A DNA stretch of 34,300 nt from Bacteroidales bacterium (GTDB lineage: Bacteria > Bacteroidota > Bacteroidia > Bacteroidales > Dysgonomonadaceae). The translations under genes were made by a program, and so were the position numbers. Positions 3,859 through 6,293 of the stretch are shown piece by piece (the stretch's first letter is position 1; the number at the start of each line of letters is the position of its first letter). The stretch is from assembly GCA_012518155.1 (NCBI GenBank), contig JAAYTC010000077.1:1-34300 (forward strand), read 5' to 3'. Under the pieces are notes generated by a model, which was not told where the DNA came from, did not search any database, and saw only the letters and a program-made list of their open reading frames with translations.

Positions 3859-3959
3859 CCATTCATTTCGAGTACAAAGATATTGTTTTCAAACGGATTC
3901 ACAAAATGTTTGCTCCTTTTTTTGCATCCCCCCGCGATGCGACTTAACACTCTTCTCCT

Positions 3960-4205
3960 TCAAATATCGTTGTTCGATTGAATATCTGCGTCGGGGGGGA
4001 GGATGGTTGTCTGTTTCTCTTCGGTGAGGGCAGCGATTTCTTTGTGCTCGCGAATGCGGGTAATGGCCTCTTCCGCGGCTTCTCCAATAATCACTCCAAA
4101 TTCGTATAATTGGGTTATAATCAACCCTTCCGATCGTAGGTCGTCAGCAACCACGTACAGTTGATCGAGATAATATTCTTCTATTGTAATTACAACTCGT
4201 TTCAT
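3960..4205 (-). CDS. Small 81-aa protein, probable I9-type (subtilisin propeptide-like) domain protein
   Basis: MKRVVITIEEYYLDQLYVVADDLRSEGLIITQLYEFGVIIGEAAEEAITRIREHKEIAALTEEKQTTILPPD: predicted beta-alpha-beta-beta-alpha-beta order, with an I9-like ending (..AAEEAITRIREHKEIAALTEEKQTTILPP); directly downstream of an S8 protease on the same strand. Confidence 0.6.
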   Translation of the reverse strand: MKRVVITIEEYYLDQLYVVADDLRSEGLIITQLYEFGVIIGEAAEEAITRIREHKEIAALTEEKQTTILPPDADIQSNNDI

Positions 4206-4240
4206 CTATTATCGATTGTACAATTAATTGAACCATTGGC

Positions 4241-5413
4241 TTATAAGGGTGCTTTGCAGAGGCCGGCTCCTACATCTTTACCGTTCAGGGGAAGAGGTTT
4301 GGCACCGGCCGTCAGCAGCTGTTCTATTTCGGCAGGGTCTGCGCCGGGATGTTTTTCGCGTAAAAGCGCGAGGATACCCGCCACGTGTGGTGTGGCCATG
4401 CTGGTTCCCGATAAGAGGCGGTACCTTGTCGGCATGGGGTAGGAGGAATAGATTTCGACCCCGGGCCCCGCGATGTCTACCTTCCCCGAAGGGTTAATTT
4501 CCCGGTTTGAGAAGTTGGCCACCTTCATCTCTTCATCGAGGGCCGCCACCGCCAGAATGGAAGGGCAGTCGGCGGGGCTTCCCACCGGGCTGAGTCGGTC
4601 CTCGGCGCGGTTGCTTTCGTTGCCGGCAGCGGCCACAAGAACGGCACCCCTTGAACGGGCAAACCGTGCCGCCCTTTCGTACGCGATATCATAGACTTGG
4701 CCGGGAAGCACGGGGGTGCCGAGTGATAAGGAGATTACCTTACATTCGTTTTTGGCAGCCCAGGTTATACCGTTGAGGACCCAAGATTGCGCGCCGCTAC
4801 CGGAGTCACTCAATACTTTTCCCGCGAAGATATGGGCATGGGTGGCTACCCCATAGCGCAGCCTATTCTCGTTGCTGCTTCCACACGCTACACCAATGCA
4901 ATGCGTGCCGTGCCCGTGTTGGTCCCGAACTGTTTCGTCGGGCACGAACGAAGAGGTGGTGATCATCCGCCCCTTGTAGTCGGGGTGATTAGTATCGAAT
5001 CCGGTATCCAGTATAGCAACACGGACTCCCAGTCCGGTATATTTTGAATGGATAGCACCGCTCGCGCGAATGCCCCAAGTGGAAGGCTCTTCCAGTTCAA
5101 CCGGGATATCGTCGGGCACATAAACCACTTTTTCGGGAGCGATAAAATAGTCGGTATCGAGCGTTTGCAGTATATACACCCGTTCATCTTCTACCCCCAG
5201 GAGGGTAATCCCCAACTCGTTGTATAAAAGGGCATCTGCTCCATGAATATTGTTCTCGTTAATTCCTTCTGTCGTGAAATCAGACGTCTCCGCCACCGTC
5301 AGTCCCCATTTCGACTCCAATATTTTTTTGGTCTCGCTTGGGCGGGTTTGGCCCTCCCGATGGATAAGAAAGTGCCGGCCGGTATAGCCGCATCCAATTA
5401 TTGGAGGTTTCAT
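4241..5413 (-). CDS. S8 (subtilisin-like) serine peptidase, apparently without a signal peptide
   Basis: Catalytic motifs Asp (VAILDTGFDTNHPDYKG), His (HGHGTHCIGVA), Asn (AAAGNESN) and Ser (SGTSMATPHVAGILALL); N-terminus MKPPIIGCGYTGRHFLIHREG is not a secretion signal. Confidence 0.95.
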   Translation of the reverse strand: MKPPIIGCGYTGRHFLIHREGQTRPSETKKILESKWGLTVAETSDFTTEGINENNIHGADALLYNELGITLLGVEDERVYILQTLDTDYFIAPEKVVYVPDDIPVELEEPSTWGIRASGAIHSKYTGLGVRVAILDTGFDTNHPDYKGRMITTSSFVPDETVRDQHGHGTHCIGVACGSSNENRLRYGVATHAHIFAGKVLSDSGSGAQSWVLNGITWAAKNECKVISLSLGTPVLPGQVYDIAYERAARFARSRGAVLVAAAGNESNRAEDRLSPVGSPADCPSILAVAALDEEMKVANFSNREINPSGKVDIAGPGVEIYSSYPMPTRYRLLSGTSMATPHVAGILALLREKHPGADPAEIEQLLTAGAKPLPLNGKDVGAGLCKAPL

Positions 5414-5462
5414 TTTGTTGTAAATTTAGCCGTGATTCGATGAGCCCTGGGGCACGACCGAC

Positions 5463-6293
5463 TCACTGTTGAATCAATTTGTCAAGAAACTTTTCGCCTA
5501 TTGCTGGTATAACGTATTTTGATCCGGTATCATCGTCCCGGACTGTTTTTAATATTCCTTTATGCGCGAGCACGTTAAGCGAAGCGCGCGCTTCCGGCTG
5601 CAACACGCTTGTCACGGGCAGGTGGTAGCCGTGGCGTTTGACTGTTTCGAGGAACTCCTTCTCCTCGCGCGATAATCGGGAGTGGCTCAACTCCATTTTC
5701 AAACTGTTATCGGTAACCATCTCCCGCTCCTCGTCCCGATTGTCCACTCCCGATCGCCAGATCGCTATCTCGGCATCTTTTACACGGCTCTCTTCCATCA
5801 TGGCGAAGAGGTTAGGGAGATAGAGGCGAGTGTAAAAATAGCCGATGATGAAGCCGGCAATAAAAAAGTAAAGGATAAGCGATATCAGTACCGGTTGGGC
5901 AAAATCGCAGTTCATCCGGGTACAATCGACTCGTAAGAGGATGCTATCGGCAATGCTTTGCAAGTGCGTGGGAATGCGCGTGATTTGCGTGAGAGTGATG
6001 CCGATGATGATCTTTGTAAGCCAGTCCGACACATCTTCCAGGTTAGTGTTGGGATGATATTTGATGCTTCGGTTGTAATTTTCACGCGGGTCGTATGCCC
6101 TGTTTAGCTTGGGAATTCCAAACAAAAAGCCGAGCACACCCCCGATCAATAACGACGCGAGAGAAATCAACACCAAAAGTGCCGTGAAATCACGGCCGAA
6201 ACCGGCAAAGGCAACACAAACGATACAAGCGACAATACCGAGAAGTACCACCGTCACCGGAAAAACATGAATATATGCCGATACGCGTTTCAT
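5463..6293 (-). CDS. Multi-pass membrane protein with GFLFGIP motif and winged-helix-like C-terminal region; unknown function
   Basis: Hydrophobic segments VFPVTVVLLGIVACIVCVAFAGF, LVLISLASLLIGGVLGFLFGIP and VLISLILYFFIAGFIIGYFYT; conserved-looking NTNLEDVSDWLTKIIIGITLTQ; cytosolic tail LSREEKEFLETVKRHGYHLPVTSVLQPEARASLNVLAHKGILKTVRDDDTGSKYVI resembles a wHTH. Confidence 0.75.
   Translation of the reverse strand: MKRVSAYIHVFPVTVVLLGIVACIVCVAFAGFGRDFTALLVLISLASLLIGGVLGFLFGIPKLNRAYDPRENYNRSIKYHPNTNLEDVSDWLTKIIIGITLTQITRIPTHLQSIADSILLRVDCTRMNCDFAQPVLISLILYFFIAGFIIGYFYTRLYLPNLFAMMEESRVKDAEIAIWRSGVDNRDEEREMVTDNSLKMELSHSRLSREEKEFLETVKRHGYHLPVTSVLQPEARASLNVLAHKGILKTVRDDDTGSKYVIPAIGEKFLDKLIQQ

Follow-up and report, generated by a model that had tools for sequence, protein, structure and literature searches.

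A cytosolic subtilase gene and its small I9-like companion: a recurrent block with a GFLFGIP membrane protein in Proteiniphilum and Petrimonas

The MB-S8-SM block and its proteins

The stretch of DNA analysed here (the window; 34,300 nt, contig JAAYTC010000077.1 of assembly GCA_012518155.1, a Bacteroidales bacterium of the Dysgonomonadaceae) is part of a 2.57-Mb metagenome-assembled genome (MAG), the relatives of which are Proteiniphilum and Petrimonas. On its minus strand lie, in this order, three closely spaced genes: MB (6293-5463), which encodes a membrane protein with the GFLFGIP/PNTNLEDVSDWLTKIIIG signature; S8 (5413-4241), which encodes a cytosolic subtilase of 390 amino acids (aa); and SM (4205-3960), which encodes an 81-aa stand-alone protein of the I9 type, a putative trans inhibitor of S8. 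The intergenic gaps are 49 nt (MB-S8) and 35 nt (S8-SM), and the block is located between DUF5063-exonuclease-RlmI on one side and rimP-nusA on the other. A preliminary description of this DNA, made from its letters, had proposed the same three open reading frames (ORFs) on a shared strand, with gaps of about 50 and 36 nt and between the same flanking genes, and our ORF list and computed distances agree with it throughout.

S8 belongs to peptidase family S8 (PF00082, E = 3.8e-54) and has an intact Asp-His-Ser triad. The catalytic residues D136 (codon at 5006-5008, minus strand), H168 (4910-4912) and S338 (4400-4402), as well as the oxyanion residue N265 (4619-4621), are invariant in 27 aligned orthologues. 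By hydropathy, the N-terminus is not hydrophobic, and neither a signal peptide nor a transmembrane segment was found, so the subtilase is indeed the leaderless, complete-triad enzyme of the preliminary description. The catalytic domain is preceded by about 100 aa or more, and the 27 orthologues begin with an M(K/Q)PPxLG-like sequence. The N-terminal domain (aa 10-105; 5099-5386) may be a cis-acting, I9-like prodomain, as suggested by its layout, its position and its homology with the N-terminal domains of other Bacteroidota S8 peptidases (hhalign E = 3e-18 and 1.7e-5). The window copy of this domain has no Pfam match, and the PF05922 matches are weak and restricted to the distant S8 relatives in loci L234 and L235.

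In the AlphaFold2 model of SM, the core (pLDDT about 95) is arranged as E-H-E-E-H-E, and the C-terminal tail (aa 63-81; 3963-4019) is disordered. Of the 13 best PDB matches found with Foldseek, ten are propeptides of subtilases or POIA1, a stand-alone inhibitor (e.g., 2z56_B, TM 0.63/0.76; 3cnq_P, TM 0.65/0.73). As judged from this predicted structure, such an enrichment of propeptides is specific, the neighbouring gene being that of a subtilase, and the subtilisin-propeptide layout first read from the sequence is thereby recovered. At the sequence level, searches of Pfam (in which the window copy of SM has no match), NCBIfam, PADLOC and the PDB gave nothing significant for SM or MB; Inhibitor_I9 is the Pfam family matched by the most SM orthologues, below threshold (5 of 27, best E = 0.022). 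At its end, the tail carries a conserved PP(D)xDIQ, of which Q76 is invariant, and 13 of the 27 aligned orthologues terminate exactly at Q76; this DIQ end would suit a product-like plug in the S8 cleft. We rejected a close paralogy of SM with the N-terminal domain of S8: the profile similarity is weak, and the two have a shared fold but no demonstrated recent duplication.

For MB, AlphaFold2 (pLDDT 77.5) predicts long helices at residues 7-30, 34-59 and 129-190, plus 84-104/107-120, and a cytosolic C-terminal tail (aa 196-275; 5469-5708) consisting of helices 209-220 and 233-244, strands 248-252 and 259-263, and helix 267-275. The best PDB matches of this tail are winged helices of the MarR/MepR type (Foldseek; top matches 3lfk, MepR, MarR), in accordance with the winged-helix-like character attributed to it earlier. 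Orthologues of MB occur in 26 genomes with the signature invariant, and the tail is absent from one sublineage (L014, L027, L030, L031 and L033).

Recurrence within the family and beyond

We searched 101 genomes of the family for S8 orthologues, defined by about 60% identity or more, and found them in 30, the window's own included: 25 of the 39 genomes of the genus and five of the Petrimonas type. SM lies directly downstream of S8 in all 30 orthologue loci, at a spacing of -4 to +91 nt, once as a fusion. MB is present in 26 of the 30 S8-bearing genomes (Proteiniphilum/Petrimonas), upstream of S8 in 24 loci and at the end of another contig in G057 and G076. The other four genomes (G065, G070, G077 and G079) have kept S8-SM without MB, with DUF5063 adjoining S8, and a Hymenobacter locus (L115) has MB without S8. 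The preliminary description had posited a three-gene module and had set co-occurrence of the genes in advance as one of its refutation tests: the block does recur as a unit, but MB is not an obligatory part of it. Because one lineage lacks MB and another has an MB without the tail, the inseparable core is S8 plus SM, rather than the three genes. The adjacency in 30 of 30 loci, a dN/dS of about 0.1 for S8, SM and MB alike (informative pairs) and the correlated protein distance matrices (S8-MB, r = 0.91; S8-SM, r = 0.79) put the association of the three genes far beyond chance. The matrices of all three also correlate with that of NusA (r 0.59-0.70), below their mutual agreement, which would fit a mostly vertical descent.

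In the five loci with a short-tailed MB, the MB frame overlaps the start of S8 by 37 nt, and S8 and SM share an ATGA overlap in four loci (L009, L015, L021 and L023); because of these overlaps, both junctions look translationally coupled. In some loci, S8 and SM are in frame through the stop codon. In the Petrimonas-type MAG G046 (L029:1387-2838), they form a single ORF owing to a 32-base deletion as compared to G041, and this fusion may be real or an assembly error.

Genomes without the block (e.g., G059, G078, G052 and G074) have DUF5063 and rimP directly adjacent at a clean junction, and in G067 a lone truncated SM remnant (L211:4569-4760), which is a decaying copy of the block, sits between these two genes. 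The clean empty sites and the solitary remnant indicate that the block behaves as a unit. In most Proteiniphilum it is found beside rimP, and in some lineages, including P. acetatigenes and Petrimonas, elsewhere; apart from this second kind of location and the empty sites, its distribution is largely vertical. Between SM and rimP in the window (3875-3905, minus strand), there is a perfect consensus match to a Bacteroidetes-type promoter, TTTG-N19-TATCTTTG. It is the only perfect match in this part of the window, the whole of which contains two, with 1.1 expected by chance. Given its position, rimP is probably transcribed separately from the block.

Outside the family, a phylum-wide S8 profile search (cut-off E<=1e-45) yielded 11 other Bacteroidota genomes, in eight of which a 66-79-aa I9-like protein is encoded directly behind S8, with differing partner genes. 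Three of the eight are SM-family members as judged by profile, another three fall into a second small family found in DUF2589-type operons, and two were assigned by their I9-like layout, one with a sub-threshold Inhibitor_I9 match (L235) and one by its resemblance to the former (L234). The three SM-family proteins (L228, L231 and L233; E = 2e-6 to 6e-8) come from three distant genera and are the only non-orthologous matches to the SM profile above background among 3,189 ORFs. A further match, to part of an unrelated ORF of 175 aa in G292 (L175), was discarded as due to chance. In the strict sense, the SM family is rare: four of the 361 Bacteroidota genomes sampled, one of them the window's own, score strongly.

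A second type of S8 is accompanied by its own 66-70-aa I9-like protein in eight of eight genomes of the window's family. The second operon type consists of genes for a DUF2589 protein (291 aa), two unknown proteins (about 250 aa and 194 aa), an S8 (about 419 aa) and the 66-70-aa I9-like protein (L216:5410-9053, L217, L218:4623-8299, L219, L229, L230 and L232); in L219, an insertion sequence interrupts S8. What ties SM to the second small family is their position, their layout and an EEK-rich end common to both; their profile similarity is weak. We found nothing useful in the literature on DUF2589. In yet another Bacteroidota genome (L237:643-2700), a related S8 is directly followed by a caspase-family gene.

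Relatives of MB and known protease systems

The GFLFGIP/NTNLExxSDWLTKII domain is widespread and sporadic: a pattern scan of one genome per species returned 184 stretches encoding a relative of MB. In some of them, the domain is joined to a different C-terminal domain (receiver, pYEATS, TPR). Twenty neighbour genes were scanned, the first ten picked partly as effector-like and the second ten mainly by closeness. The former include genes for a caspase, a NucA-trypsin, a Tle1-like lipase, DUF900 and a metallo-beta-lactamase; the latter include an AbiEii toxin and an M43 peptidase, and also MFS, LpxR, CBS and LysM proteins. With this selection, the scan suggests a link between the MB family and effector enzymes but does not measure an enrichment. 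Individual relatives, in other phyla, adjoin a caspase with peptidoglycan-binding repeats (Nocardioides, L139:3943-6507, gap 4), a NucA-trypsin fusion (L121:1-3323), an AbiEii-type gene (L122:1636-3665), a Tle1-like lipase (L161) and an alpha/beta hydrolase of DUF900 (L153). An Ignavibacteria locus (L125:3439-10167) carries in a row a patatin-like gene, a GFLFGIP gene, an S8, an 85-aa ORF and a second S8; the 85-aa ORF, on the opposite strand, is propeptide-like (Tk-SP_N-pro, E = 4.7e-5). The Hymenobacter MB (L115:5899-6846) ends in a tail of similar, winged-helix-like sequence; neither S8 nor SM lies nearby, and the gene upstream is weakly ORC/CDC6-like.

In eukaryotes, proteins that mimic a propeptide but stand alone have been proven to inhibit subtilases (PMC6993865). 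Known stand-alone I9 inhibitors include Pleurotus POIA1, yeast proteinase B inhibitor 2, Arabidopsis SPI-1, TgMIC5 and Plasmodium SUB1-ProM, the gene of which lies beside subtilisin genes (PMC6993865). Like them, SM is small and single-domain with the subtilisin propeptide fold. These inhibitors are mainly eukaryotic, whereas SM is bacterial and cytosolic, is encoded in one operon with its presumed target, directly after it, and has a longer, Pro-rich C-terminal tail ending in DIQ, its inhibitory action being presumed. Bacillus Isp1 is a cytosolic subtilisin with a dedicated protein inhibitor, IPI/BsuPI (PMC3901451), an arrangement that S8 and SM would share; however, IPI/BsuPI has an all-beta, Ig-like fold, and SM, which is alpha/beta, falls outside that family. 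In Isp-type enzymes, the N-terminus is 16-25 residues long and contains a LIPY/F motif (PMC9995970). S8 resembles them in the absence of a signal peptide but has, instead of the short LIPY/F N-terminus, a domain of about 100 aa starting with MKPP. With the I9 propeptides that act in cis in Tk-subtilisin/Tk-SP and Bacillus subtilisin, SM shares the fold and the S8 N-terminal domain the position, but here a second, trans-encoded I9-like protein exists in addition. The anti-phage system IetAS also contains an S8 peptidase. We rejected it as an identity for the block: the AAA+ ATPase IetA was not found in the block or its flanks, and the scores of S8 fall far short of the IetS models (14.7 of 900 bits with NCBIfam; with PADLOC, E = 1.8e-13 for a match that covers no more than the S8 core).

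A guarded protease and its possible roles

Intramolecular propeptides are the textbook means of keeping subtilases off. In the block, we think it probable that a cytosolic subtilase is held off by a translationally coupled I9-type inhibitor acting in trans, with MB as membrane anchor or sensor. S8 would be made in the cytoplasm with its I9-like domain in cis; SM, predicted to adopt the stand-alone I9 fold and translated right after S8, sometimes from the overlapping ATGA, would pack on the catalytic domain as a subtilisin propeptide does, its ...PPPDxDIQ tail entering the substrate cleft and plugging it in the manner of a product. MB would anchor or sense at the inner membrane and pass a signal via its cytosolic part, upon which SM would be removed or displaced and the protease released. 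Since one lineage has S8-SM without MB, the latter would modulate rather than constitute the core.

Taken together, the pairing, the coupling, the fold and the independent recurrence are best accounted for if SM is a propeptide-type inhibitor acting in trans. Several observations weigh against it: the Foldseek E-values are modest (best 0.005), as the ferredoxin-like fold is a common one; the Inhibitor_I9 matches of the SM family never reach the curated Pfam cut-off; and the profile relations of SM with the S8 N-terminal domain and with the second small family are weak (P 0.005-0.05). A protein with this fold might also act as an intermolecular chaperone, or as a regulator that binds a ligand. 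That it serves as a folding chaperone for S8 and not as a lasting inhibitor seems improbable to us: propeptides act as both, and SM is tightly paired and apparently translated with S8, but the N-terminal domain of S8 could do that job in cis, and the strong conservation of the SM tail is as expected of a cleft-binding plug.

As to what a guarded protease would be for, a housekeeping role, in which a membrane-linked stress or nutrient switch lets S8 process specific cytosolic proteins, is a reasonable prospect, if short of an expectation. Slow evolution, a stable locus without mobile elements at the site and the precedent of Bacillus Isp1 with its inhibitor (PMC3901451) speak for it; the block is nevertheless dispensable, as only 25 of 39 genus genomes carry it and the empty sites are clean. 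We regard as rather unlikely that the block is a cell-death or anti-invader module, with S8 as suicide protease, SM as antitoxin and MB as the sensor that frees S8 upon infection or membrane damage, a role of the toxin-antitoxin or defence kind that the preliminary description had raised. Such a role is suggested by the caspase, NucA-trypsin, lipase, DUF900 and AbiEii neighbours of MB relatives, their swappable C-terminal domains, the S8-caspase pair in L237, and the Ignavibacteria locus, which joins MB, two S8s and a propeptide-like protein; NucA-trypsin/S8 and caspase systems, including caspase/EACC1, have been described as predicted conflict systems (Kaur et al. 2020, PMC7159879). Unlike those, the block is without an NTPase, an effector-associated domain or a nuclease, no known defence gene adjoins it, and the other immediate neighbours of MB relatives are ordinary (MFS, LpxR, CBS). 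The fixed site beside rimP in most Proteiniphilum and the strong purifying selection would argue against mobile defence, as would the largely vertical co-inheritance, although the block occurs in 25 of 39 genus genomes, with clean empty sites, and at more than one genomic location. An origin from phages or plasmids was rejected: no phage match to S8 exceeds 60% identity, those among the best matches listed being generic, mostly Bacillus-phage subtilases below 40%, and plasmids gave one weak, partial MB match. Because the locus is stable and its evolution slow, we lean slightly towards regulated proteolysis rather than cell death, the conflict-system neighbours of MB relatives being the main counter-evidence.

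In the papers searched, we came across no bacterial example of a cytosolic protease with a separate propeptide-type inhibitor encoded next to it, though this does not prove that none exists; such an arrangement appears to be little described. More speculatively, and with considerable doubt, cytosolic subtilases with stand-alone I9-type "antitoxins" could be guarded executioner proteases throughout the Bacteroidota, possibly more broadly, in which interchangeable sensors (GFLFGIP proteins, DUF2589 operons) decide when the guard is removed. If true, this would offer a simple, testable model of how bacteria carry a potentially lethal protease in the cytoplasm, a signature (S8 plus a 65-80-aa I9-like gene) by which many unnamed small ORFs could be annotated, and a source of small proteins with which subtilases could be inhibited in trans. 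For its part, the uncharacterised family of GFLFGIP membrane proteins becomes linked, across several phyla, with genes for peptidases, lipases and nucleases.
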